The translations under genes were made by a program, and so were the position numbers. Of a DNA stretch of 64,000 bases, positions 14,445 to 62,298 are shown one piece after another. Position 1 is the first letter of the stretch. Each line of letters opens with the position of its first letter. The stretch is from Symbiotaphrina buchneri (Eukaryota > Ascomycota > Symbiotaphrinales > Symbiotaphrinaceae): assembly GCA_001599915.1 (NCBI GenBank), contig BCIG01000019.1:372001-436000 (forward strand), written 5' to 3'. Below the pieces are notes generated by a model. It saw nothing but the letters and a program-made list of their open reading frames with translations, ran no database searches and was not told the DNA's origin.

Positions 14445-17400
14445 CTACTCCTGCACACGCCTGAACGCACCAGGCCGGTACTTGCCCGTGGCAGCAGCTG
14501 AACCATCCGACGGAGACTGCGAACCTTGCCTAGGTGGCAACGGTGCGTCGCCTCGCAAGTGACGGGGAACATACTTCTGAGGCGCGCCGTCTGCAGGCGA
14601 CACATCTCTCCCAGGCAGGTCGCCTCGCATGTGTCTCGGCACATACTTTCCAGGCGCTGCCTCACCGGCGGGTGATGTCTCTCTCGGTGGGATGACATCC
14701 TCTCTCATCTGGCGCGGGACATAACGAGCCGGAGCTCCATCTGCCGGAGACTCTCCTCTAGGGCCTTGAGCGCGGACTGTAGGAGGGGTGTATGCGCGAG
14801 GAACACCATCTTCTGGGGTACCGCCCGAGCGACCGCGGAGGGCTGGGGGGACATATCCCGTCCTCTTGGGAAGTTCAGCCTCCGTTGTCGGGACATCGGA
14901 CGGAGGTGCAGGAGGAGGTGCAGCTTGCCCGCCGTTTTCTTTGGCAGCAAGCCGTTCGCGCCATCCTGCCGTCTTTCCGCCAAGATTAAGCCGCGGAGGA
15001 GCTCCCGTAACCGGCTCTGCTGGGCGCTCAGCTGGGCGCTCTGGGGCTCGGCCAAGGCCTTGTCGGCGGGCACGAAGCTTCTCTTCCGCTTCTTGCTCCT
15101 TTTGTCGCTGCTTGGCGGCTTGCTCATCGAGTTTCCTAGTAGACAGGTTAGTTGACTGGCGCATACCCTTGGGCATATGGATAGTCAGAATATACCTGCG
15201 TTCCTCTTCTCTCTTTGCTTTCTCCTCCGCAAACTTGCGACGTTGCTCTTCTTCCTTGGCGGCCCTCTCTTCTGCCTCGCGGGCGATGCGCTCTTCCTCT
15301 TCCCTAGCTGCTCGCTCACGTTCTTCTTGCTCCCTCCGTTCACGAGCTCTCCGCTCTCTGACTTCCTTCCGACGTTGCTCCATCTTCCTCTCCAGTTCCT
15401 TTTCAGCATCCTTCCTCCTCCTCTCGAACTCCTCATGCCTACGCTCGTGGACCTCGTCACGGAAAGGCTCATAAGCACCCACAAGCCGAGAAAGGCGATG
15501 CTTCAAGGCAAGGTCTTCCTTATGTTTCTGCTCCGCCTCCTTCAGTGTCTCCTCCTTGGCCTTCTCATAAGCCGCAAGATCGCGCTGTCTCTGCTTTTCG
15601 TAGTCTTCCGGCAGTTTCTTGATCTCTTCTCGTCTAAGAGCCCGCTCGAGATGGTCGATACGCTTCCCGGTCACCCGCAGACGCTCGGCCATCTCATTCT
15701 TCTCCTTCTCCAGTTGCGCCAACTTCATTGCCCGAAGACGATTACTATCCAGTTCATCAAGATCCATCTCGCTGAGGTCGAGGCCCTTGACACCGCTCTT
15801 CAAGTCCTCTACCTGCTTCTTCAACTCCTCATGGCGGATACGATCTTGTTCAGCCTTGAGACGACGGCGCTCCCGTTCTTTCTGTTCTTCAGCAAGACGC
15901 TGGGCTTCAGCCTCCTGCAACTGTTGTGCGCGAATCCTCTTGCGAGTAGCCTCCTCCTTCTCTTTCTGCGCTAAAGCACTTGAAGCAGCCGCTTTCTTCT
16001 TCTCAATTACTTCGCGCCTCGCCAACGTCTCTTGGTGCTCCTTTTCCGCCCCAGCCTTAGCTCTCACCAGCGCCGCCGCCTTGGCTTCGGCTCGGGCTTG
16101 ATTGAAGGATGGATCAGCATACTGGCAGGTGATATACAGAGTCTTCGCAAGTCTGCTAAGCTGAGACCTTACGATCTCGGCCGGAGTACTCTGCAGACGT
16201 TGCACAGAGCTCTTCTCGGACTCGGCAGACCCCGCGGCAGAACCGGGGTGCAGAGCCTTGGCCGAGGAGAATACATCCGAATCAAATGTGAGCACACCTG
16301 CAGCATGATCCAAACGGATTGCGAGATCACCCTTCTTGCACCCGTTCATGATGAACTTCTCGATGCTAGCAGAAGTGACTTGGAACGGTTCCGGAAACTG
16401 TGCCAACTCGTAGACGAACTTCAACTCCACCGATTCGTAGACCTGAGACAGCTGCTGGAAAAGCCTGGTGAGGATGACCTGCTGCAGAGGTTGGACATAC
16501 TTCTCCATCTCCGGATCAGCGCCAATCTGTTGAAGGATCGGCGATATCTTCTTGCAGATAGAGAGGGGATGGAAATCGACTTCCAGTATGTTGTACAAAT
16601 CGCGTATCTCAGGCCGCACACGCTTCAAGAGCCCCTTACTAAGGGCGTCCTTGAAAAGAATGGCACGAGTCGGGGCTTGAGACATCCCAAGAAGGTTGGT
16701 AAGTCGCTGGTTCTTATTCTTCCTGGCTTCATCGACGTCCACCAGTGCGCCCCGCGACCGGGAAGTGCTGATGACGGGAATTGAGAGTGCAGAAAGGAGA
16801 ACAAAGGAAGCAACCTTGGTCAAGTCCGTTTCGGAGGCCGCAGGGTTTTCCTTCTTGGTGCTGTGACCAGCAGCCATTGCGTTGGCAGACTGGCGTAGAA
16901 GATTGTAGTATCGGCTCCAGGCAGCGGCATGGAAAAGATAATTCTCGCTGACCAAGAAGATCTTCGTAAGCTTCTCGTAATAGTTGGCCATCATGATATT
17001 CTTGGGCGGCCGCTTGCTCAAACTCAGAAGGGTATGGATGTCCTCGACGCTACGGAAAGCCTCCTGCCACAGTTCAAGCTCGACCGCAACGTTCAGCTGG
17101 TGGAAACGGGTATCCAAATGACGCTGCAAGGTATCAGGGTCGCTCAGGTTGATAGCATGCATCTGCTGGGAGTACTTGGCAGCATTTTGTAAATGATTGC
17201 GCAACAACTCGCAGAGGCGGCGAAATTCGGTCTTGCGGGCGTACTTGAGGCAGAACTGGAATGCCTGGAGGGCAGTCGTCTGATACATGATCTCCAGACG
17301 AGCATTATTCCTCAAAATATCGAGCACCGTGCGGTACGTCTCCCAGAGGAACTTGAGCCACGGCGTCACTATAGCCCTGTCGGTACGGTCGCGAGACTGC

Positions 17401-18027
17401 TCTCCGGACACGGTCGACAGGAGGATGGACTCGGGCGTTTCGGTGGCTTCGAGATCTTCGATGTTCCGGGTTGCAACGGCCGAGTCGAGGCTGGACTGGA
17501 CCTCGTCCGCCTTGGCTTGTGCTTCAGTGACCTTCTGCTCGGCAAGCTCGATGAATTTTTTGAGCACCAGCTATGGGAACGGAGCAATGCATCAGTGGCA
17601 AGCCAGGTGGAAGCGGATGGTGGGGTGTCCTACCTCGATCGTTCCCACATTGGTATTCTGTGCGATATTCTTGTATTGATAGAGACCGTCCTTGGCCGAC
17701 TTTCCCTTTCGGAGCTCGACACACAGTTCAACAAACAAGATCATCACCGGCTCCAGCGAGGCAATGGGACTGTTCCTCGAGCGCTTCGACGTGGCATGTT
17801 CGTGAAGCAGGGACAGCGCAGCCTGCGACTGGCCGACTGCGATGAGCTCTTGAGCCCGCTGTAGCAGATCAGTATGTGTTTCCCTTGTGGACACGTAGCA
17901 ACGGGCAAGACCCAAACGGTACCCCGTGGATTGTACGGATGAGGACGAGTGCGGAGAGGATGATAAAAGGGATGAACAATCTTACCTTGAGCACATTCTC
18001 CGGCTTTGTGTGCGGAGGAGGCGGCAT
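14445..18027 (-). CDS. TIF32: Eukaryotic translation initiation factor 3 subunit A
   Basis: Four exons (18027-17986, 17858-17634, 17570-15196, 15135-14445) give 1110 aa. The start [23 protein letters not shown] is the conserved eIF3a N-terminus. The TPR-like and PCI regions follow, with WRYYNLLRQ-type motifs (here [15 protein letters not shown]) and the PCI winged-helix region up to about residue 500. A very long charged coiled coil then runs to about residue 870, rich in [12 protein letters not shown]-type heptads; this is the spectrin-like region that binds eIF3b and eIF3g. The C-terminal tail carries short repeats of the form [10 protein letters not shown] and [12 protein letters not shown]. 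The protein scaffolds eIF3 on the 40S subunit. Exon 1 encodes only 14 residues. The last intron interrupts the coiled coil and its removal keeps RRKLDEQ in frame. Confidence 0.96.
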
Positions 18028-39477: not shown

Positions 39478-42400
39478 CCCCCTTAAGTGGTAATAAGTGC
39501 TTTTTAGGCTTTTATTCATTTTAGATGTTTCAACCTTATATTCGATATATTTCCAATTTAGGTATCGATTTTTGTTTTTGCACTTATTTTGTTTTTAGGA
39601 TTTTATTTTAATCCTAGTCCTTGAACATATATTTTGAATTGTTCGCTGTTTACTGTTTTTGTCAGTGAATCTGCAAGGTTATCCTTGCTTTTAACCCAGT
39701 TTAGGTTTATTTTCTTTGTTTGTACATTTTCACGTACAAAGTGATAGGAAATATCAATGTGTTTTGCCCTAAAGTGGTATCTCTCATCCTTCGAATAGTA
39801 AATTGCAGATTCACTGTCTGTGTTTATAAAGGTGAGCTGATTTGCGCTAAACCCAATTCGGCTAAAAGCCTTTTATACCATATATCTTCTTTAGTTGCTT
39901 CTTTTAAAGCCATATATTCAGCTTCGCAACTAGAGACTGCAGCGGATTTTTGCAATTTGCTCCACCAAGATATAGGTGATTTTTCCCCCATTAGGAAAAG
40001 TAAATCCTGAGGTAGACCGGCAAGAGTCATATTCACCCCCCAATCAGAGTCACTATAACCAATCAATTTGGGATAGGAATCCGATTGATAGACTAAGCCT
40101 AATTCGGTAGTTCCATTCAAATATTGCCAAATGTGGTTTAGTGCTCGCCAGTGTGATTCATTTGGGTTTGAGTTATAGCGTGCACAGGTATTCACATTGA
40201 ATGCGATATCTGGTCTGGTTTTAGTAGCTAGGTAAATTAGAGAACCGACTTCTTGCTGATATTTTGATTTTTGTTCTTCATCAGCACGGTAATCTTTATC
40301 TGCTACTTCCAGCCGAATTCCTACTATTCCGGGTGTTTTTACCGGGACTAAACAGGTTTTACTGTATTTTGCTAGTAGGGTTTTAGGTAACCTTTTTGGG
40401 TTAGCCTGATTTGTTTTTGTTTTCGATCCCGTATGACCTCTATACCTAAATAGTATTTTACCGGGCCTAAATCGGTAATTTCCAGTTGTTTGGAAATTTC
40501 TGTTTTTAGTTTTTCAATTTCCGATTTAGATTNACTGAAAATTANGAGGTCATCTATATNGCANGTGATTATCAGCTTTGTTTCAGGATTTCTGAAAACG
40601 GCAGGGTCTGAATATAAAGTTTTAAAACCCAATTTGTTTAGTAATTCTTTTAAGTGAATATACNATTGCCGTGCTNATTGTTTTAGGCCATACAGCGCTT
40701 TATTTNATTTGCANNCCATTTTCGGATTTTGATNTTGTTCAAATCCTGTTGGCTGCTGGACCCAAATTTCTTGGTCAATTGCCGCATTGGGAAAAGCGGA
40801 TTTTATATCCCATNGTTCTATTTCCCAATCTAGGTGTGCAGCTAGCGCAAATAGTAACCGCCAAGATTCCGGCCTAGCTGTTGTGCTAAAGGTATCCGTG
40901 TAATCTCGGCCTGGTATTTGTGCGCAGCCCTTCACTACCCAACGGGCTTTATATTTAATTATTTCCCCGTTTTGGTCTAGTTTGGTTTTAAATACCCATC
41001 GACCTTTGAGCGGTTTTCCTGGGGATTCACTTAAGCTCCAGGTATTTTGATTTTGCAAGTCGGAAAATTCTTTTTCCATGGCTTTTATCCAATTTTCCCG
41101 ATTAGGACTAGCTAGAGCTTCCTCATAGCTTTGAGGGTCGCCGATATTTGAATCAGCCATATAAACTAGGTTTGCTAGCTCGTCTTCTGATTCATCGGTG
41201 TAATTGGAATTTTGAATCCTAGGAGCACTTTGCATCCTAGGAGCATTTTCCAGTCTAGGCCTTTTTCTAGACTGTACCGGTTCAATTTCTTGTAATTCGT
41301 CGACTGATTCACTGTCGACTAGGTCACGTGCTTGGTCACGTGTTGCAGCGGGTAATTGATTTTCCGGTAGGGTTTGCATTTGTTGTGGGTTTGAAATTTG
41401 AATTTCGATTTTATTTCCCAATTGCAATTTTTGTTCGTTTTTCTGAGGTAAAAATTGACCTTCAAGAATTCGGATATCATGCGCCCAAAATATACGGTGC
41501 GAATCCGGATCGAACAGTTTATATTGGTTTGATCCAAAGCCGATCAAAATTGCCAATTTTCCCCTATCTTCAAGCTTCTTGGGGTTTTGTGCTCGAAAAT
41601 AGGTAATTGATCTAAATATCCTTATGTGGGAGTATTCGGGTTTTTGGCCAAATCGCATCTCATATGGAGTTATCCCTTTTAAGGAAGTATAAGGAGTGCG
41701 GTTATAGAGGTAAATTGCAGCATTTAGTGCTTCCCCCCATAAGTATTTAGGTAAATTTGCACGATTGAGCATCGCTCTAACCTTATTGAGTAAGGTTCGA
41801 TTTAGGCGTTCAATTAACCTATTTTGTTCAGGTGAGTAAGGAGCGGAAAATTCCTGGATTACCCCCATTTTAATTAGGTGGGTTTGCATCTTTTTAGATA
41901 TAAATTCTCCACCATTATCCGATTTCAGGATTTTTAATCGGTGTTTTTTACTACTAGCGTTACTAGTAGCGTTTTCCGCTCTAGTTTCAAAACGTACTAG
42001 CGTGTTAAAAGCTTGACTTTTGTTTGTCAATAATTCGGCTTCTAACCACCTAGTTTTATTATCTAGGGAGGTTATAAAATACCGTTTGCCGGTAAATGTT
42101 TTCGGATCAATTGGGCTGCATATATCCGTGCTTATCTTATCTAGGTAAGCTTCGGTTTTCACAGTTTGAATTCGATTTATTTTTCCAATCAAATTTGATT
42201 TAATGCAATGTTTGCATTCAAATTCACTGGAAATTGAATTTATTATTCCCATAGTTCTAATTGCTTGGGAATTTACATGGCCCATTCAATCATGCCATAA
42301 TTGCTATTGCTTTGCAGCATTCACTGCATTTAATGCAGTGACCGCATTTGTTTTTGCTGCAATAGGAATAGCTGTTTTTTTCGGCGGAATTTACTGTGTT

Positions 42401-48130: not shown

Positions 48131-51100
48131 TCATCTGTATCCGCGCGATTTTCGCCGAAGTTTGCTCCTCTTGCTCCTAACATCAGCGGCTGTGGCGTGG
48201 ATTGATCCCGCGCTGACGTTGATGTGGCTGTCATTGCCCTTGTCCATCTCCTCATCAACTAGACCCTGGAGTTCCTCCTCATCGATCTCACTGAGTTCTT
48301 CGCTCATACCACGTACTACATCCCGTCCTGTCCAGCGCTCCTCATGGATGGTTGTGCCCACAGGGTCAAATGGCTCCATATACCAAGGTATGCCGCCTTG
48401 AGAGAAGGGTGCAAGCAGGTCGCCCTCCGAGCTCATCGGCGGAGTTGGTGGTGTACCATGTAGGATATCCGATTGAAGAGAGCGATTAGCGCCGTCGTTC
48501 AAAACAACCATATCCTCATTTGCAGTTAGTGAAGGGATTGATGTCTTCACGGTGCCATCTTCATGCGAGGTCATTTCCCTGTCGCCGTCAAAATCGGCAT
48601 CTCCGCCAACCTCGGACCCAGAATGCTGCAATTGATCAACTGCTTCACCACCGGATATAGCGTGCTCATCATCCTCTGCCACACCCATCGAAGGATCTCT
48701 TCCGATTCCTGGCCGACTGACCGTGTCATCCGTAGCATTCGAAAGACCCTCAACGGCAGATTCAGCCAGAGAAGCCCGCCTGGAACGCAGGCCAATATTC
48801 AACAAGGAGTCCAGGTCTCTCAACTCCTTCTCGTACGGTTTGCCGCCCAGGTCGGCTTCCTTTTTGCCAGCGTCCTCTAACATGCCTTGGATAGCTCTGA
48901 TTATCCGCTTTGCTAACTTCCGCTTTTCTTTTTGGGCCTGATCAAGAGGAACCATTTCCGGATCCCTGGGCTGGTTGTCACGGCTTTCCGTTGGTTCTGG
49001 AAGACCCACGGCAGAGCTGAAGACAGTCCCGACATCTGCGGAAAACGCGGCCACCGACGTATAAAATCTCTCTTCCAGCTTTGAGCGCAACTGCGTGAGC
49101 CCTTCGCGAAAAGCTCCTTTGCCGTCGAGGCTGTAATGCATTAGCAAGTAATGGATGAACGACGTCAACCGGCTCACCTTTCAGCTTTCAGCAAAATAGG
49201 CCAGAGAAGTTGATTGATAGGGAAATAGACGGTGTCCACCAGTCTTCGTAGCAGTTCGACGTCTTTCAGCTTCTCCCGTTCGCGTTTCTTGAGTTCGTCA
49301 GTCAATAATCGTAGCTTGTCCACATCCTGCAGCAACTGTTCCGCAAACCCAATTCGTCGCTCCAGCCTCGCTCGGCCAACAGCCCCCATGGCAGCAAAAT
49401 CTCTTCTAGTTATTTCCATGGAAGAGAATGTCTCCATCTGTAATTGAAGCCTCTTGAGGAGAGCTGCACCCCGCCTGGCTTCCCTTTTAAGCGTCCAGTA
49501 CTTGCATGCTTCAGCAGCGTATTCTTTGCGTTTCCTTATGGTAAAACGCTGCAAAGAGCTTTCTACGGAATTATATAGGGCTTGTGGAATAACTGGAGCG
49601 CCAGAGGGTAGTTTCCAGACTGGTTGTTGTGGCTGATTGCGTTTTCTTTTGTTGGCGCTCTGTGTGGGGTTGCTGCGCAAAGCGACCTCATCTAGACCGT
49701 CGTACGCTGCACTTTGCTGAGGGGGAGCAAGGGCCAGCGCCGACCTTTGACTGTCTGCCCAGATTCTTCCTCTCATGGTATGATGATAAAACTCTTGTGC
49801 CTCGAGGATAGCTCTGTCGGTGCCATTTTCCCTTCGCCACTCGGCGGGAACATGTTTGTCACAGTAGGCCTTGAGAACGCTGGCGTCGAGATTGGCCGGA
49901 CCCCCGTGCGTAGACTTCATCTTTAGAAATAACCGTGCCCTGCGCGCACAGGTTACGTGAAATGCGACGAAACAATTCTTGTTCCCACATTGTATGCAAG
50001 CACCCATCTTTTGCCTGCAAATGTAACATGCCTGGAATTGTCAATGAAAGGAAAGGACCCAGCGTTGGTGCAAGAGAACATACAAGCTTCCATCTCTGCT
50101 TCGGAACCTTTTCCACGTCAAGCACCGGTTCCATGAACGTCATATTGCCCAAGCTGACCTCAGGAATCCAGATGGCGCAAAGAAGGTGAGCCCATCTGGA
50201 GGTATTGGTCTGTTTGAACGCACCATCCATGTTCGGGCAGAAGATGCAAGTCTTACACGAGTAAGCACTCCGCAATAGATCGCCTCAGGGTTAAAGCCAA
50301 CTCACCGGAGTGCCGCGACCAAGCAACTGGCATTTACGACATAGCCACTGGCCTTCCGGAATGAAGGGAACCCCATAGCACTCTTGATGCACCGCAAGAT
50401 CACATCCATCGCAGAAAACAATGGCATTGGTGTTTTCACAGTCGCCATCGTCGCAAATGGCACACTTGCTATCCTGTTCCTCTCCAGCGCCGGGAGGTTC
50501 GCCACTTACAGCGGCTGCAGAACTTGATCTGGGTCTATGTGTTTGTGGCGGTTTTGGATTAGGTTTCGGTATGCCTGACAAGAATTAACACCATTGCTGA
50601 AGCAAGAAGCAAAGGACACTATACGTTTCTCCAATGCGTGCCATTCCTTCTCGATTTTCGTCATCGTGACCTCGAAAATTTCCCGCTTTATTGGCTCCAC
50701 CTCTTCTGTTCTTCGATGGGCGTTATATGCATCCAGCCATTTATCGTCTTGTTCATCCATGTCGTACTCCACTCTGCCCACACCTACCCCACCCAAGGCG
50801 GTGTTTGTATCCTTGTCGTTGGCGAAACCTGGACCAAGGTCAAGATCCTCTTCTATTGTACCTTCCGTCATACGAATCAACCTATTTTCCGGTCGAATGA
50901 ATATATCGCTTTCCTGATACCCTACACTGGCCATGGCGCGATCAACGTAAGCTACTTGACCGGTACCTTTCTGCTCGTACAAGGAAAACGGATCCGCCGG
51001 CCGAAATGAAGGTTTTGGCAATGTAAGGCGCTCTCGCGGATTTGGTCCAGGTGGTGGTATGAACTTGGGCTCTTGCGGCGTTATCAAGCCGTTGAGCAGA

Positions 51101-51738
51101 CTGCTCTGTCTTCGAGGGGGCCTGCCTGGCCGGCGCTTTGGGGGAGGCGTGTCAACGATCGCCAAAGAATCGGTCGGATCATTATCTTCGGGGATGGCAG
51201 CAGTTGGGCGCTCGTTCCCATCCGCACCAGACGAGCCTTCAGCATTACCTGAAACATTGTCCAGGGGTCCATTGGTGGTCGCCAGGTCCGTTTCAATCCC
51301 ATCAACTTCTTCGGCACTGAAAACGGTGAACTCTGCTGCGACGTCTAGGTCAGGATGGAACTCTTCCCAGCCGCGTTCCTCCCTCGGCTTGAAGCCGTCC
51401 CCTTGAACCACTGCAGCAGCCGCAGCAGCCGCAGAGCTATACCGAGGTCTCGTTGAAATTGTCTCTCGTCGAGGTCGTGAGTATATCGACGGGCTACCGC
51501 CGTTCAAGGCCTCGCCGCGATCGGCCCTCGCTCCCGAGCGGGAGCGGACAGAGCCTTCCTCGTCATCCACATCTACATATCTGCCGCCGCCGCCTGGACC
51601 CCCGGGGATATAACGCCTTTTCTTGGGCGATAGTGCGTCCCCGATGCCGTTGGCGCGTGTAGTCGGTAAGGAACGGCGAGGGGGACGGCCCCTGCCTCGC
51701 GGATCCGACGATCTTTTTGGGCTTTCCAGAGGCGCCAT
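48131..51738 (-). CDS. NTO1: PHD-finger protein Nto1 (BRPF/JADE family)
   Basis: Five exons (51738-50625, 50574-50306, 50251-50084, 50031-49178, 49130-48131) give 1134 aa. The N-terminus is basic and Pro/Arg-rich ([10 protein letters not shown]), then an EPL1-like segment with [20 protein letters not shown] near 255-275. PHD1 ([21 protein letters not shown] to GQWLCRKC, about 405-450) is followed by the zinc knuckle [13 protein letters not shown] and the extended PHD2 ([13 protein letters not shown] to [14 protein letters not shown] and [11 protein letters not shown]). This PHD-knuckle-ePHD module is the family signature. A helical region and an acidic C-terminus follow. Nto1 is a subunit of the NuA3 H3K14 acetyltransferase. 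I see no bromodomain or PWWP. Total is exactly 1135 codons. Confidence 0.95.
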
Positions 51739-52301
51739 TATAGTGGAAACCTCCTCTGGGAATTGACGGGCACGCGGGGACTGGCTTACAGCAAGAGGCG
51801 CTGCCCCGTCAAGGATGAAGAGCAGTCCGCCAAGCTAAGTTCATGGCTGGACTTCCTGCATGAGATCGAATTTGCAGAGAGCGCTTGCTGGTTCAGTCTC
51901 TGAGCGACGGCTGTAGTCGAATAATGTACGTAGTATGATGTTACCGGAGGTGTTGTCGGCGCGTCTTTTGATGACAGTCGAAGTAAACGACCGCAGTTGC
52001 TAGGAAAGGAGTATGGCAGTACCTTAGGTAAAGTCAGGCACTTACCGCGTCCGAGCTAGGTATGTACCTACCTTAAGGTACCTTAGCGGAACAATGGTAA
52101 GGTAGTGGGTAAGGTAGCTTCCGCAGCAGTACCTTAGTCACCTACAGGCCTATCGCTATCATCATGTGCGAACCTTAACAAGGCATGCACTCGGTCCGAA
52201 CCTCCTCCACGATACCAGCTTCACCTGCGTTTTGCCCCTTTTCTTGTACAGTACGGCGCATATATCATTGGCGGCAGGGATGCGCAGCATCGCCTGCGAG
52301 C
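51739..52301. promoter_or_regulatory. Divergent promoter region of NTO1 and the cystinosin gene
   Basis: About 560 bases between divergent starts, with a cluster of TACCTTAGG, GGTACCTTA and GGTAAGGTAG words at about 52018-52140. No supported frame. Confidence 0.6.
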
Positions 52302-53683: not shown

Positions 53684-56001
53684 CTACGTCGCCGAGCTTC
53701 GCGCTCCCATAGTACTTATGGGCAGCCATGACTTCCCCGGTGGTGGGAGCTTTGGCCTGCCGAAGTTCTCGTCTATGTCCAAAATCAGTTTGAGCGCGTT
53801 TCGACTGCGCAGATATGGCAGAGGAGCTTTCGCTTCAGTGAGTCCTAGGCCCGGTTCACCCCGGCCAATGGAGCCAGGAGTTTCGGCGGCTCCGGAGCCC
53901 ATGGGAAGCAGAGTCTGAAGCACTTCATAGGCTGCCAAAGTGAACCCAAACTGCGGCGAGGACCGCATTATACGGGCAGGCCCTCCTTTGAAGAATGCTC
54001 TGAACCCTTCCTCTTGCCAAACCGTTGTCGCACAATGCCGGAGGTTGAGATACTTGGTTTCGCCCTTGCGGGCCTCCACCTGCAGTCTCGTCTTGATGAC
54101 ATCGCAGGGCGTGGTCAGATAGGCTGCGGGCATACCAGCGATGGCACCAGCTGTCAGAAGCTGCAGTACCCCGAGCTTCTTGGTTTGACTCTCTCCGAAG
54201 AAGTCACGTTTGAGATGATTATAAGCAGGGAAGTAGATAGCGGAAAAGGGGACTAGATGGAAGAATCAGAGACAGATCTCGAAAGCAGGTTGGAGGGGGC
54301 GGAGGCAATTGTGGCTCACCATCCCGCAGCAAACAAGCTGTGGCCCCCTTGTAAAGTCCCACAAGCCCGAGATTCTTCACGATCCACATCGCTGAACGCT
54401 TTGGCACGCCCTCGACATTTTTGGCTACCTCCCCTTGAACTTGCAGTCTGATCTTTACGATCTCTAGGGGATTGGTGAAGACCTGCGATCATCAGACCAG
54501 CATATTGATGAGGAGGATCAGATACGTACAACTTGGCAAGCACCTGCGGAACCCCCAGCTAAAATTTCGTATGGCCACCAGATCTTGTTTGTCTTGTGAT
54601 CCGTAAATCGCTCCCGGACCAAGTCGTTGACTGTGAGCTTGATGGCCTTCTCCGGGGCCACGCCAATCAGCTGAGGTAGTACACCAGAGTACAAGCCCAA
54701 GAAGCCCTCATTCCGAATGACTTTGCGGAAACAATCGATGGAGTTGTTATATAACCTTTCTCCTACCCGCTGGTTACGCTGATTCTGCATACGTGTCTTG
54801 ACGAGATCGATGGGATAGACCATGAAAGCTCCAAAGGCACCAGCAACACTTCCCAAGGCAAAATGGTGGACCGATTCAAGCACCTTGTGCAGGATGTCCT
54901 TGGTGGTCGTCGATGCCCTGCCCATAGCTTCAGCCGCCGCTGAAGAAGGCACGCCTGTACCGAGGTCGTAGACGTTACGCCACGACGAGTCCAGCACCTT
55001 GGAAAAGTCTCCCAAAGCCAGGCGTCCAGACGGTTGGTCGAAGCCAGCGAAATGAAACAAGATGTCCGCTTCCATGGGCGTGAAGAGGGAGAACCGGGTG
55101 ACCCGAGCAGCTTCATTCAAAAAGTCTGTTCGCGTGATTTTTCCATCACCACTCTTGGAGGTCGCATTGCGAATGACGAGCTCCACCAGGTCCATCTCTC
55201 GAATGACGTTCTGGAACGCTCGAACGTTTGCGTAAGAAATCTTGCTACCAGTGGAGATATTGCAGAGGGTATGCAAATTCTCCAATAAGTGGTCGGAAAG
55301 CTTGTGACGGGCAGTTTCCAGAATGATGCGCTGGAAGTCCTCGGGTTCTATGTACCCGTCACCATCTTTGTCAAAATAGTGGAAGGCTTGCCGTATCCTC
55401 TCCCCTTGTAATCCGCGCAACATCTGGGAAAATTGAGGATATGTCATGTCATGTCGCCTCTTTTTCCCTCCAACGTATAGAGCGATCCATTCCGAGTTCC
55501 AATCAAATGGTATGCTGTCGGCGCCCTTGTTCTGGTTGTAAAATCGCTGGAAGTCGTCGTACTTGACGGATCCTTTCCCCTCGACGTCGAAGAGGCGGAA
55601 GGCAATCTCATACTCGGCATCTGGTTTGGCGAGGATGTTCTCGAATAGGCCCCAATCCTGAAGATTGATCTTACCCACCTTCCGTCTGTCGGCAACCTGG
55701 AACAGGATGGCGTACTGTTCGCGGCGAATCTTGTGCTGAGAGTTCGGGCAGCGTCAGCCAACCGTCTCCCGGGCCGACGGGGACGAGAAAGGGGAACAAA
55801 AGGGGGGATGCAATTGCCTACATAGTCTTCGTTCTTGGGAGCAATTGCATCCACGAAATCTTCTTCTGTCATGTACGGCTCACCGTCTTCTGCATCCTTG
55901 CGCGCATGTCTGTTGAAGTTGGCTCGTGCCTGGGCCGACAATTGTGGTTCCACCGTGGTCCCTATCAAGGACTCCTTGACAGCTTCTGCGACGGCGGCCA
56001 T
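53684..56001 (-). CDS. AGC1: Mitochondrial aspartate/glutamate carrier with EF-hands (Aralar/Agc1-like)
   Basis: Four exons (56001-55822, 55735-54530, 54482-54320, 54252-53684) give 705 aa. The N-terminal half holds EF-hand-type repeats, the clearest being [14 protein letters not shown] near 190, with others at [14 protein letters not shown] and [13 protein letters not shown]. The C-terminal half has three mitochondrial carrier repeats, with signatures [20 protein letters not shown] and [10 protein letters not shown]. This layout matches calcium-regulated AGC carriers of the malate-aspartate shuttle in the inner membrane, with EF-hands facing the intermembrane space. The yeast Agc1 N-terminus lacks EF-hands of this kind, so this is closer to animal Aralar/citrin. 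A carboxy-terminal tail follows the last repeat. Total is exactly 706 codons. Confidence 0.96.
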
Positions 56002-57729
56002 TGCTGTTGATGAGAGTGGTCTCTAAGCTTCCAATCTCGTGCCTGGTTGCAGGTCACATGGAAAGATAGCATCCGCAACGGTTGACGTCTCTGTTGGGAG
56101 GTCCGACCTGTGGAGAGACACGCAGTCTGTCTCGCGGCCGATTGTGGAGTGCGCTTGTTGCTTGCCTAAGGTAAGGTAGGGCCGAAATCGACGGGAGAAA
56201 TTGGCGCTTTTTTTTCTGGATCGCTAAAATCGGAGGCGGCCCCTGCGCTTCCAGCTCGTCCTGGCACCGAAGGGACCCGAGCGTTCACGACAAGCAGACG
56301 GACAACACGAGGGAGTACGACTACGGTATTCGTTCACAATATGGAATGATAATGATGGCGATGATGACTCCCCGAAGTAATAATACTAATAATGGTTAAA
56401 ACAAGACAACAAATGTAGCAACAGCACGATCTCGTCTTCGTCTCTCCCTCACCAAATACTGGAATATTATTGAAAGTAAGGTACTCGAGTACTTTCCACA
56501 ATCTGTTGCTGAAGGAAAGGGACCGGGAGCGCGCGATATCAGGGGTCTCTCGGGGTATAGTTACGCCTAAATTACCCGGCCGGCGGCCGGCGACTTGCCC
56601 GATAAATCCAATTAACAGGTCCGAGTAAGGTAGGTAAGATGAACAAGCCAAGGGACGAATAAGAGTACCTCATACACAGCAGATTACGGTAGGAGCTCAA
56701 AGTACCTCACACCTGCACAGAAGTCTCGCATCGGCCTTGTCCGACAGGAATCCAGCACCTAAGGTAGCGTACTCGAGTATGTAAGGTATGTTACGGAGTA
56801 AGGTACCTACGGTACCTTAGGCAGCACTTGGAAGGTAAGGTACTCGGCGTGTCGGACCTATGGTTATAAACTCCTTCACCTCAAAAGACTTGATTGAGCT
56901 TCCAGACGAGCAGGTCGGCTTGAGAATTGAGCTTCGAGCTTCTATCCATCTCGCCTTGTCACCTTTCTTTCCTCCTCCCGAGGCAAAGAAAAGTTTCTAG
57001 AAAGGAGTAATGAATGACTTTCTCTGTGGGCTAGTTTGCACCCATCCCGTCATGCAAGAAAGGCGCCTAGAACAGCAATCTTCGGTTGGCTTGGACGGGA
57101 TCGCCGCTCCGTCTTTTCGCAAACTCCACAAAATGCGGCCGCTGACAACGTGCTGTGCTTCTCTGCTCCCGTGCGTAAGGTACCTTCAAGGTGGTTAGGG
57201 TAAAAGGGTAAGGGAGGTATGCAACAAGGACACACGGATTTTGATCGATCATTGGCACACCAGGGGGTCCATGGCGTGCATGCATGCAAGCCACAACACC
57301 TCGGCGGCTACAGCTCGCACTCCTTCCTCCGCGATTCCCTCACACGTCCCTCCAGCGCTTATGATAAATACCCACGGCCCCCGCCCTCCACCCCCTTGGG
57401 CGCTTTCTGTTTCTTGTTGTTCTTTTTCTGGGTCGTCGTAGGTTTTGATAACCTCCAGATCCATTGCGTCTTCAAACTTCTCGCGTTTTATCCCTTTGCA
57501 CCTTTTTCGCGATTGGCTGGTCCAATCTGTTGCGCGTCATATCTCTTTGTTGCTTTACTCGCCGGCAGCAACCATATTAAATTCGCTCTGAACCCCCCTT
57601 CGCACATTTTCCTTCCTCGTCGGCCGAGTAACGTACTCCGCTGCACCCCGTACTGCTCCTTACAGAGCAATATCCACTGGTCGACCAACGTCAAGGTCTG
57701 GAATCACTTTCCACCGGTCCATCATCAAC
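56002..57729. other. Gene-free stretch with GGTA/TACC motifs
   Basis: About 1.7 kb between divergent starts. Motif copies are dense at 56165-56180, 56455-56490 and 56625-56850. From about 57200 the + strand is pyrimidine-rich and leader-like for the small gene at 57730. Overlapping frames at 57219-57872 have no domain and conflict with that gene. Confidence 0.5.
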
Positions 57730-58041
57730 ATGATGCCCGCAAAGGTTGCGCGTGCTGCCAGGCCCAAGCTCAGCCTCAGCATCCAAGCCGCGACCCAACC
57801 GACGCAGCGAGTTGCAACTCCCGTCAGCCCGTCACCCCTCACACCTACGTCTCGCAACACACGAGCCAATAAGCGGGGTATCAGCACCATCCAGCATCCG
57901 ACTTATGCCTACGCTCAGAATGCCGGTACCAAGAGCATCTTGAGGCGACGAGATTCAGGCGACTCATCACGGTCGTCTCCGGAGCGCAGGATCCAGTTTA
58001 ACGACCAGCCAGAGGTCCATTGCATCACCCCGCTCTCGTAG
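57730..58041 (+). CDS. Small disordered protein with possible PP1-docking motifs
   Basis: A single exon of 103 codons, rich in Ser, Thr, Pro and Arg. It has proline-directed sites (TPVSPSP, LTPTS, SSPERR) and a central PTYAYAQ. Near the C-terminus, KSILRRR at 68-74 is followed by ERRIQF at 85-90. SIL[KR] and [RK][VI]xF are the two classic docking motifs for protein phosphatase 1, and their order here (SILK before RVxF) is that of inhibitor-2-type regulators. I do not recognise the family. Function is inferred only from these short motifs, which can occur by chance. Two ATG codons in tandem begin the frame. A stable basic, Ser/Pro-rich composition supports a real gene. Confidence 0.62.
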   Translation: MMPAKVARAARPKLSLSIQAATQPTQRVATPVSPSPLTPTSRNTRANKRGISTIQHPTYAYAQNAGTKSILRRRDSGDSSRSSPERRIQFNDQPEVHCITPLS

Positions 58042-59366
58042 GAGGACGCTGAAGCTCCCGCCTACCAGGTTGTGAAGGAAGCCCGGAGGTGGACAAGCAG
58101 GTTGGACGACTGAGTATTTTCTGACGGCCTGCGATGACGACCGGCGGTGATGCGTTACGAAGTGATGAATTTGGAACGATGAATACTGTCAGACTCGCAT
58201 TCTCTGGCCTACTCTCTCTGACAAGGTCTGCGATTTACATGGGTTGAATGATCGAGACTGCCAGAGCGTGTAGGACTCCAGCTACCTTTCATAAGCTCAT
58301 GACTCAATGAAGAACATGCGTTACCTAAGCTTTCGGAAGTCCCAGAAGTGGGACGCCGCTGTCGGTCCTTCTGACAATACATCCTTTCCCGCAATCAGCT
58401 ACGTACGGCGTACTTGGCCAGAGTGTTCCTCAGTACTGTCCTCGGCGAGCAGCGTAGTGAAGCTCTTCATTTTGCCATCCGTTCTTGCACGTGCACAACA
58501 TCGCTTGATCATCTATCATACAATGGCAGATAAGAAGATAATTATCTTCGATTTGGTTGGAGAGAGACATATGTGAGTATGGGGGGTGCTGTAACATCCC
58601 CATTCCCCGCAGTGCACCAAGGCCCAGAAGCAGTGTTCGCACGAGGTAAGAGCACGAATATGCAATGAGGGCGGTTTCAGGGTTCGAAATCAGTAAATGC
58701 ACATTACCGCGAGACCTGTAGGCGCCGGATCCCAAAATAAACAGCAAATAGCCGACACGGCCAGTGTCGAGAGGCCTTTGCCAGTTTGCGATAATAATAG
58801 AGCGAACAGATCGATCGTACCTGAGAATTTGGCGCCTGAAAACGGGCGCTTCTGCACCAGGAAGAGCTTTGAGTTTCAGCAGCCCAGAAAGCTGCATCGT
58901 GCCCCATCTGGTCATGTTGCTGCAGAAGGCGGCGTCTGTATCGTTTCAGAACACATAGGTAGGGCCTGGGACCCTATGGAATAGAGCTTGCCATTCTCTG
59001 ACAGACAACCAGTATGTTTCACGGCCGCAGATCAGGTCAAAGATGTGCCCGCAGCGTCAAATTGCCAGAGTCTCGTCCTCTATGTCGTGGTTGGACTTAT
59101 GAGGCCTATATAGAGCCCACTCCCTCAACATGTGAAGGACCAGTCTATGAACGCGCAACCCCGCTCCGGTCAGTGGTACACGCTCTTTTTCTTTTCCTGC
59201 GCCTTCTTCTGTCAACTGCACTCATCGGTTTTTGGCATTGTTTCGATTTCTTCCTTCGACATAAACGTACAGTTGTTCGTGGACCTCTTGGACTCTCTCT
59301 TCACACCACGTTTACTTGGTCATAATACGGACGGTCCCTCCTTTTATTCGCACCCTTTCTTCGACA
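58042..59366. other. Gene-free stretch
   Basis: About 1.3 kb between two + strand genes. A minus-strand frame of 161 codons at 58430-58915 has no domain, its composition does not look protein-like, and frames on the other strand cover the same bases. It is not called. Confidence 0.45.
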
Positions 59367-60039
59367 ATGCCAAGAGCAACTGAGGACTACGCCCCATATG
59401 GTGCATCGACTGTCCCCTTGGGAACGGCAGACCGTCAAACAAGCGGGCGACATTCTTCGTGCGCGTGGAGCGCAAAGGATGATGAGTTACTAACTAGATT
59501 GAGAGCTTCGAACCTTGCGTGGCTCACAATCCAGGAAAGGTTTCCTAGCAAGAGTGCTAATGCATGTCGGAAGAGACACGAAAGACTGATGGAAAAGCGG
59601 AACGGCGGAGACTGGGACACTCCAAGACTTGAAAACATAGCCAAAGAATATCTGGCTGTAAGAAAGGATATGTGGAGCGTGCTCGCTCACAAGGTCGGTG
59701 AGAAATGGCAGGATGTTGAGTCTCAGGTAAGACATCAGTCTTGTCCGCCACTGGCGGTTTTTTTTTTCCTTTGAAAGAATCGATTTTTGACTTGGCGATC
59801 AGTGCATGAAGGAAGGACTCAGAAATCTTCAAGCGGCAGCCCGAAGCGCAACAAGGAAGGAAAAGCGGGCAAGCATGGAAGACAGTGGCATAGCGTCTAT
59901 GACAGACGACTCCCAAGTTAGAGAGGACAAGGAGAACGAGACGTATTTTGCGAGGTCAACAACGCCCGCGCAGGAGAGATCCAGGATCAATCCCTTGAGC
60001 CCTAGCATCGCGTGGATGCTCAGCTCAGAAGACCACTAA
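59367..60039 (+). CDS. Myb/SANT-like DNA-binding protein
   Basis: Two exons (59367-59726 and 59803-60039) give 198 aa. Residues about 35-75 read CAWSAKDDELLTRLRASNLAW followed by TIQERFPSKSANACRKRHERLM. This has the helix-helix-turn-helix spacing and Trp/Arg pattern of a Myb/SANT-like repeat. A second, weaker repeat-like region has LAVRKDMWSVLAHKVGEKWQDVESQCMKEGLRNL near 95-128. The C-terminus is Ser/Thr-rich and disordered, with an SPS near the end. It is probably a nuclear DNA-binding protein; targets are unknown. A pyrimidine tract (poly-T) precedes the acceptor. The exon sum is exactly 199 codons. Confidence 0.83.
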
Positions 60040-60255: not shown

Positions 60256-61734
60256 CTATGACAAGAAAGGGGTACCGGAGCGGTGTCTCCAAGATGGAAC
60301 GCCAAGGATGCCTCCATCGTCTGCGTAAGGGTCGATGGACCATTTTCGCAGAGCTAGGCAACCCAGATCGCTTTGCCAACCAGCCTCATACATCTCAAGT
60401 GCCGTCCAGGCTATCATGGCTGCATTGTCTGTGCAGAAGTGTGAGGGCGGGGCAATGATTTGTAAATCATCGTGTCCCTTCGCATGCAGGTACGCAGTCA
60501 TACTATGCTCGTTAGTTACAGGGTTTTTAGAAGTATCCTGTCGCAGGACATACATTGTCTTCAAATACTGGTTAGCTGCGACACCTCCACTCAGTACAAG
60601 AGTCTTGACTGGGACATAGTTCCCGTCTTCCCTTGCTAGATCGAGACCCATTGCCACCCGAGAAGCAAGATGCTCGAAAGCCACACGCATGGCAAGCCTG
60701 GCAAGCTCTCTTCTTTCTTCCACGGTCATCAGACCTCGTCGGCTGTCCATGACCCTGTGTACTGCGCTTCTAAGCCCGCAAAAAGAGTATTCCATCGAAT
60801 TGTTCTTCGACCCCGACCTCGTCTGGGCCAATGGCTGGGGAAGACTCCAACCCCATACGGATTGCTTTCTTGCCAGTTCTTCTTCCCTTGTTGCCGGAGG
60901 CGTATATTCGTGGTCCTTGGCGTCGTCTTGAAATGCAAATCGTTCCAACAACCGACCGAACATGACGTCTCCGGATGCTTCTAACACCTCTTGTGGGACA
61001 ACGCTTCGACCGATTTTGTCTAAAGCATCGCCTATCGCGGTATCAGAAGTGGAGGCCAGAATTCGGTGGTCGACTAAGCTTCGAGAATGCACTAGCATTG
61101 TGTGACCTCCTGATACCAAGAGGGAGAAGAACGGAAAAGCTGGTTCCGTTTGGTCGCCGACAGGGCGTTCGAGCGCTGACACCAACCTTGGCGTTAGGGC
61201 ATGCGCTTGCATATGATTGATCGCCACGAGAGGGACTTGCCAGGCTACGGCGAGCCCTTTGGCCATGTCTAGCCCGGTAGCCAGGCTGGACCTCATCCCG
61301 GGACCACGAGTAACAGAGACAAAATCCGGCCTCTGCTTTTTGAGTGGCCCAGCGGGGCCGATAATAGGCAGCGCAGCGCCGGCAACACCAGACCCTGGTG
61401 AAGCAGCATCTGGCAGATGCTGTAGAGCCTGAGCGACTATCTTTGCAAGTCGAGTCTGATGAGAGTCCAGAGTGACAGTCGGGTGCACTCCTCCGAAGCG
61501 GGTGTTATCTGCCGTTACTCGCTCATGGTAATGGAGCGTCGCAATGCGCCCCGGGGAAGGTTTTCCCTTCTCCTCAGCCCGGGCGATATGGTGCTTCTCA
61601 AGGATGGCAACCGAGGTGTCGTCGCAGGAGCTCTCGATGGCAAGGGTGAGAAGAGTACGCCGCTGCAGCAACGCCCAAGTCCGGCCAAAGAACCGGATGC
61701 CAGCCGTTGGTACAGACGGCACATATGGCAGCAT
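60256..61734 (-). CDS. QRI7: Mitochondrial tRNA t6A threonylcarbamoyltransferase Qri7
   Basis: A single exon of 492 codons. A short basic leader (about residues 1-28) is consistent with mitochondrial import. The TsaD/Kae1 fold begins LLTLAIESSCDDTSVAIL. The metal-binding His pair is in VAINHMQAHAL. FSLLVSGGHTML and the nucleotide site GGVAANQYL follow. The family adds threonylcarbamoyl to A37 of ANN-decoding tRNAs; the mitochondrial version works without the KEOPS partners. Three insertions relative to bacterial TsaD are visible: one after TPPATREEELARK, one near SRRGLMTVEERR and one near the N-terminus (EKGKPSP), common in fungal Qri7. Confidence 0.96.
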   Translation of the reverse strand: MLPYVPSVPTAGIRFFGRTWALLQRRTLLTLAIESSCDDTSVAILEKHHIARAEEKGKPSPGRIATLHYHERVTADNTRFGGVHPTVTLDSHQTRLAKIVAQALQHLPDAASPGSGVAGAALPIIGPAGPLKKQRPDFVSVTRGPGMRSSLATGLDMAKGLAVAWQVPLVAINHMQAHALTPRLVSALERPVGDQTEPAFPFFSLLVSGGHTMLVHSRSLVDHRILASTSDTAIGDALDKIGRSVVPQEVLEASGDVMFGRLLERFAFQDDAKDHEYTPPATREEELARKQSVWGWSLPQPLAQTRSGSKNNSMEYSFCGLRSAVHRVMDSRRGLMTVEERRELARLAMRVAFEHLASRVAMGLDLAREDGNYVPVKTLVLSGGVAANQYLKTMYVLRQDTSKNPVTNEHSMTAYLHAKGHDDLQIIAPPSHFCTDNAAMIAWTALEMYEAGWQSDLGCLALRKWSIDPYADDGGILGVPSWRHRSGTPFLS

Positions 61735-62298
61735 TCGGCGAAGGTCGTCAGCTCGTCTGTACGCCTTCCACGAGCTTGCAGCGAGGATTTCTTCTGCCTC
61801 TTAATTATATTTCTTTCTGGTTTGCTAGCGAGCTGGACTCACCGAAGTCCCCGCCAAGAGAATTGATTATACTTTTCCAATTGACTGCAGCTCCAGTTCC
61901 TCCCTTCTTCGGTAAGTCCCGCTCTCCTGCGCTTTCTATACTTGTCTCGCTGTACACCTACTCAACGCACCCTTGGACCGACGAGAGCAAGAACCAGCAA
62001 CGCCACGTTTCAGGCTACAGCACTCGGCTAAGGAACGGGAGGCAGATGGGCAGCTACCTAGGTAGGCCTGGTGATATACTCTTCAAGCCGGCAACAGCAA
62101 GAAGCCCTCAGCGCTGAAGTATCATTTGTACTCCTATCGCTATGTAATTCAGTTCCCGGCGTTGTTACTGCGAACAACGCCATGCAATGCTAAACATACT
62201 TCATGACCCACTACCCCCTGCGCTCGAACGGGCCTGCAAAGTGGCAATTTGCTTTTGTAGTTGTACAAAGAAGTTCTGTCCATTGGCCATCGCGTTTG
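61735..62298. other. Intergenic, no gene seen
   Basis: About 560 bases of Qri7 promoter and the 3' end of the next minus-strand gene. A + strand frame across 61707-62117 overlaps the Qri7 start antisense and has no domain. A GGTAGGCC-like motif copy lies near 62055-62070. Confidence 0.55.

Follow-up and report, generated by a model that had tools for sequence, protein, structure and literature searches.

The locus and its small open reading frame

The window (the whole 64-kb stretch of DNA that was analysed) carries genes recognised with Pfam, including an eIF3a PCI-domain gene (14445-17570, -), EPL1 (enhancer of polycomb-like; 50506-51834, -), an EF-hand mitochondrial carrier (54518-55753, -), a Myb-like DNA-binding protein (59265-59774, +) and a TsaD-family tRNA-modification enzyme (60256-61800, -). 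The frame at 40372-42285 (-), inside which single N bases are scattered, was identified by eye as a Copia-like retrotransposon polyprotein.

The feature under study, a candidate gene for a small PP1-interacting protein, is an open frame of 103 codons followed by TAG at 57730-58041 (+), where the preliminary description had placed it and where its translation confirmed it. The in-frame stretch is open from 57592, the earliest in-frame ATG is at 57730 and has an A at -3, and the encoded protein begins Met-Met. Fungal leaders are often C+T-rich, and the 57400-57729 (+) stretch ahead of the ORF, which is pyrimidine-rich (65% C+T vs. 51% in the whole window), looks like a fungal promoter or 5' leader. 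The protein is basic (net charge +11), contains six SP/TP sites (residues 30, 33, 35, 38, 83 and 100) and, with a hydropathy of 0.415 against a disorder line of 0.452 from the Uversky formula, falls on the disordered side, so that its first characterisation as a disordered, basic, SP/TP-rich chain was borne out. Its N-terminal 67 residues (57730-57930, +; coding posterior 0.999) are basic, P/S-rich and hold four of the six SP/TP sites; we propose that they may form a partner-binding or regulatory part. An Rfam scan gave 0 matches, which is uninformative.

For coding potential we used a phase-specific Markov model whose training set, 71 long ORFs and 114 non-coding stretches, came from 264 kb of this genome, and scores were compared with stop-free non-coding controls for 69-nt and 108-nt stretches (n = 1,500 each); the control for the whole 309-nt ORF yielded a single stop-free stretch and thus no usable comparison. 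Against the five other frames and non-coding sequence, the model gave the own frame of 57730-58038 a posterior of 1.0 (rounded). This score is driven by the N-terminal two thirds of the ORF, and sliding windows just upstream are mostly non-coding in the same frame. The C-terminal third, which bears the motifs described below, is weak (cross-validated LLR 1.28, reached by 32% of the 1,500 stop-free non-coding stretches), and the model assigned it to a reverse-strand frame with a posterior of 0.98. Nor does the ORF stand out by codon usage alone (0.032, against 0.063 for the mean of coding sequence, and matched by 46% of random open stretches), codon bias being weak in this genome and codon usage a poor discriminator. 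The weak motif-bearing third and the unremarkable codon usage both favour a reading in which the motifs are coincidental, the ORF being either not a gene or the source of a basic, Ser-rich disordered protein with an unrelated role; the whole-ORF posterior argues against it, and we regard it as a minor but genuine possibility. By these sequence measures the ORF is probably, not certainly, a gene.

Docking motifs, chance and the stretch beyond the TAG

A motif scan with the definitions [GS]IL[KR] and [RK]x(0,1)[VI]{P}[FW] found one match apiece in the 103-aa translation: the SILK-type motif SILR at residues 69-72 (57934-57945, +; KSILR from 57931) and the RVxF-type motif RRIQF at residues 86-90 (57985-57999, +), both exactly where they had first been reported. 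The candidate protein therefore combines SILK and RVxF docking motifs within a disordered chain. The translation adds a third element, the PhiPhi-type dipeptide V96-H97 (58015-58020, +), which lies at +6/+7 from the RVxF phenylalanine with the five residues NDQPE between RRIQF and Val96, so that the cassette reads KSILR ... RRIQFNDQPEVH. The same spacing occurs in the Spc7 of this genome and in GADD34, where excerpts of PMC10743859 give KVRF 555-558 as RVxF and Val564-His565 as PhiPhi, with His565 stacking on Tyr78 of PP1. V96-H97 thus appears to occupy the place of the third PP1 handle, PhiPhi, which strengthens the earlier finding of two motifs.

Chance was gauged by shuffling the protein's own residues 1,000,000 times. 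SILK arose in 7,098 shuffles and RVxF in 24,482, and SILK followed by RVxF within 80 residues in 69; requiring a loose PhiPhi as well left 5, and a tighter version never arose. That a pair with PhiPhi is so rare, that the three docking elements stand in a known order and at a known spacing, and that the genome's own Spc7 has the same cassette all speak against coincidence. In favour of coincidence, the candidate was picked after a survey of the whole 64-kb window, and the loose pair is also found in one of the 663 other ORFs of at least 100 aa. The latter count comes from 664 six-frame, stop-to-stop ORFs of that length in 264 kb of the genome, of which 12 contained SILK, 102 contained RVxF and 2 contained the loose pair, namely the candidate and an unremarkable 142-aa ORF (L068); extrapolated to 23.4 Mb this amounts to about a hundred six-frame ORFs, so the loose pair alone proves little. 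The half-cassette [RK][RK][VI]xF-x5-[VLI]H is more restricted: among 4,245 frames of at least 40 aa in 294 kb, in which some loci overlap and Spc7 had been fetched on purpose, it occurred in 2, the candidate ORF and Spc7, and thus in the candidate alone once the fetched PP1-related loci are set aside. The full cassette has a rough expectation of 2e-9, given a chain of such composition, but the cassette was defined post hoc, after the data had been seen, and all these chance figures are therefore guides, not tests.

Relatives were sought in several collections. The 103-aa protein had no match in Pfam (0 families at E up to 10), NCBIfam or the PDB sequences, which adds to the case for coincidence, and a search of its own genome returned the gene itself as the sole match. 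As a query against prokaryote and viral contigs it gave 585 and 40 pattern stretches, respectively, with 0 confirmed, a result that says nothing about fungi; a degenerate pattern running from RVxF to ITP gave 32 and 10 stretches in the same collections and no relative. Translations of 32 of these 42 stretches had SILK in none within the 80 residues before or the 20 after, as far as the printed stretch extends; the remaining 10 fell outside the peptide pattern that was applied. Against the docking reading, the prokaryote and viral collections yielded no orthologue, which leaves selection on the motifs a supposition. In literature searches of open-licence PMC, the listed titles and abstract openings contained no stand-alone small fungal SILK-RVxF protein.

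Beyond the TAG, the frame continues for 23 sense codons to a TGA (58039-58113, +). These codons are coding-like by the Markov score (cross-validated LLR 6.26, reached by 2.1% of the 1,500 stop-free non-coding stretches), their codon usage agrees (0.155, a value that 5.9% of random open stretches attain), and the signal collapses beyond the TGA at 58111-58113, where the next 69 nt score -10.9. This pattern favours a reading in which the gene is a decaying or strain-specific truncated docking gene with its ancestral end at that TGA, 23 residues having been removed by a nonsense TAG or an assembly error. Against it, a reverse-strand frame fits the tail about equally (posterior 0.57 vs. 0.41), SILK, RVxF and VH all precede the TAG and would remain functional, and there is no relative for comparison; we consider it rather improbable. 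For the tail itself, a nonsense mutation, an assembly error, read-through and chance all remain. Other ascomycetes have, in our impression, small proteins of such a layout with a longer tail, which we do not count as evidence. According to excerpts of PMC4207609, the efficient fungal read-through context is UGA CU, with TAA and TAG less leaky; the stop here stands in the differing context TAG GAG, so read-through is unlikely.

Two further leads were rejected. An intron removing the TAG could start from GTAGGA at 58038-58043, which is similar to the likely GTAGGC donor of the genome's own Spc7, but inspection by eye revealed no acceptor with which the tail would stay in frame: CAG at 58066-58068 would lead straight to a stop, and the sequence past the TGA scores as non-coding. 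A match of the protein plus tail to ANGEL2_N (E 0.028, 14.6 bits vs. a cut-off of 26.4) was put down to chance.

Known PP1 partners and the host phosphatases

By profile the candidate lies outside the KNL1/Spc7, Inhibitor-2, Ypi1 and PPP1R15 families. Its closest likeness in motif anatomy, the SILK / RVxF / PhiPhi-His cassette, is that of the N-terminal docking region of KNL1/Spc105/Spc7, with which it shares KSIL[KR], RR[VI]xF, five residues and [VL]H, the Spc7 of this genome included; it may thus work like these proteins without being a member of their family. KNL1 is established as binding PP1 through SILK and RVSF (excerpts of PMC6715587). The own Spc7, on contig C22 and found with PF08317, reads KSILK and then, after a likely 51-nt intron, RRVSFAPEATLH; its RVxF is RRVSF, followed by L-H at a spacing equal to that of the candidate's VH. 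The likely short intron that splits SILK from RVSF there has a GTAGGC donor and a CTGAC branch site, and its region lies on the minus strand of L072 between plus-strand coordinates 3284 and 3725. Unlike KNL1/Spc7, the candidate is a stand-alone chain of 103 aa without the Spc7 domain (PF08317 not matched), and only 14 residues separate its SILK from its RVxF, compared with about 130 codons in the own Spc7 (441 nt less the likely 51-nt intron). At the x of RVxF it has Gln instead of the Ser of RRVSF, so there would be no serine switch at that position. A paralogous origin from Spc7 was rejected, as BLASTP gave no similarity (E = 20) to the RVSF exon over its first 100 residues.

The Val-His at +6/+7 after RVxF is shared with GADD34 (PMC10743859, excerpts), a member of PPP1R15 (GADD34/CReP). 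In contrast to that family, the candidate has no PP1c_bdg (PF10488) match, and SILK, which the candidate has, is not mentioned for GADD34 in the portions available from that paper; the same portions report PPP1R15 as absent from Aspergillus and S. pombe. The PP1c_bdg profile was also empty in the own genome, a result of little weight because it matched in no control genome either. Ypi1/Inhibitor-3 (PF07491) is likewise small and RVxF-bearing, but the candidate has no PPI_Ypi1 match, and no SILK was seen in the frames of the own Ypi1 locus (L003). That copy sits at a separate locus on C16 (profile search, 47.5 bits) and carries RIHW. Rif1 of fungi has an N-terminal SILK before RVxF (PMC3410773, excerpts), as the candidate does, but is a large HEAT-repeat protein of which the candidate bears no trace.

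The preliminary description had likened the motif layout to that of Inhibitor-2-type proteins and suggested a small PP1 inhibitor or targeting subunit. Docking on PP1 is supported by the motif anatomy, the shared Spc7 cassette and the SILK pocket of the host PP1 described below; the Inhibitor-2 likeness is not supported. Like Inhibitor-2 (Glc8, PF04979), the candidate is small and disordered with SILK before RVxF, and Inhibitor-2 engages PP1 by means of SILK, RVxF and a helix that crosses the active site, leaving the PhiPhi pocket unused (PMC4999541, excerpts). The candidate, however, has no IPP-2 profile match, carries a VH of the PhiPhi type for the very pocket that Inhibitor-2 leaves free, and ends just 13 residues after RRIQF, which leaves no active-site helix. 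The genome's own Inhibitor-2 is moreover found by profile search at a separate locus on C32 (78 bits, GILK). That the protein is a true Inhibitor-2-type inhibitor blocking the active site is accordingly very improbable.

Two STPPase_N genes (L047 and L048) were found in the genome. L047 is PP1, its three exon frames aligning to solved PP1 chains; in the numbering of the aligned PDB chain it keeps Glu54/Glu56 in LLELEAPIK, Asp166/Glu167 in IIDEKIF and Tyr78 in FEYGGF, and the alignment extends over 101 residues of its C-terminal part, the RVxF groove among them. L048, a 552-aa frame named PPZ by eye from its layout, reads LLELSPPVK and IVAGKIF at the pocket. It has Ser, Ala and Gly at Glu56, Asp166 and Glu167, so that all three acidic residues are lost, two of them by the same replacements as in Candida PPZ1, for which Ala, Ala and Gly are reported in excerpts of PMC4999541. 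The acidic SILK pocket is thus intact in the host PP1 and lost in the host PPZ.

A predicted docking mode

The gene probably encodes a PP1-docking protein with a KNL1-like cassette. As to what it does, we lean towards a small, disordered PP1-interacting protein whose residues 69-97, a SILK/RVxF/PhiPhi cassette of the KNL1/Spc7 type, would target PP1 or compete for it. That it is expressed, binds PP1, targets rather than inhibits it and is controlled by phosphorylation is what we infer from its layout. The cassette would follow the surface of PP1 clear of the active site, SILR occupying the acidic pocket, RIQF the hydrophobic groove and VH a place against Tyr78, and PP1 would stay active when docked; from the motif anatomy one would predict docking that leaves the active site open, not inhibition. 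The basic, SP/TP-rich N-terminus could then bring PP1 to a partner, or, alternatively, the free cassette could compete with other docking subunits such as Spc7. Phosphorylation of Ser69 and Ser76 may let kinases weaken docking; Ser76 lies within RRDS, which we take to be a basophilic-kinase-like site.

PP1 is steered by its docking subunits, and the set known for filamentous fungi rests, in our judgement, largely on yeast. We put forward, tentatively and as a less probable extension, that the candidate is one member of a so far undescribed family in fungi, made up of stand-alone PP1-docking proteins of the KNL1 type whose cassette directs PP1 to a new substrate or competes for it with Spc7 and further docking subunits, possibly with a longer form made by read-through of the TAG. 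If the docking reading is true, so small and nearly bare a docking cassette would offer a simple system in which to study how free docking peptides govern the partition of PP1 among its subunits.

From its SILK motif, the candidate is also expected to bind PP1 in preference to the fungus-specific PPZ. According to excerpts of PMC4999541, the basic residue of the motif may be dispensable for the binding of SILK proteins to PPZ1, so this preference is a prediction and not a certainty. The PP1 gene itself (L047, G000:C19:366363-366506) shares its contig with the window, which starts at C19:372001, and is about 63 kb away from the candidate; this linkage is probably a coincidence.
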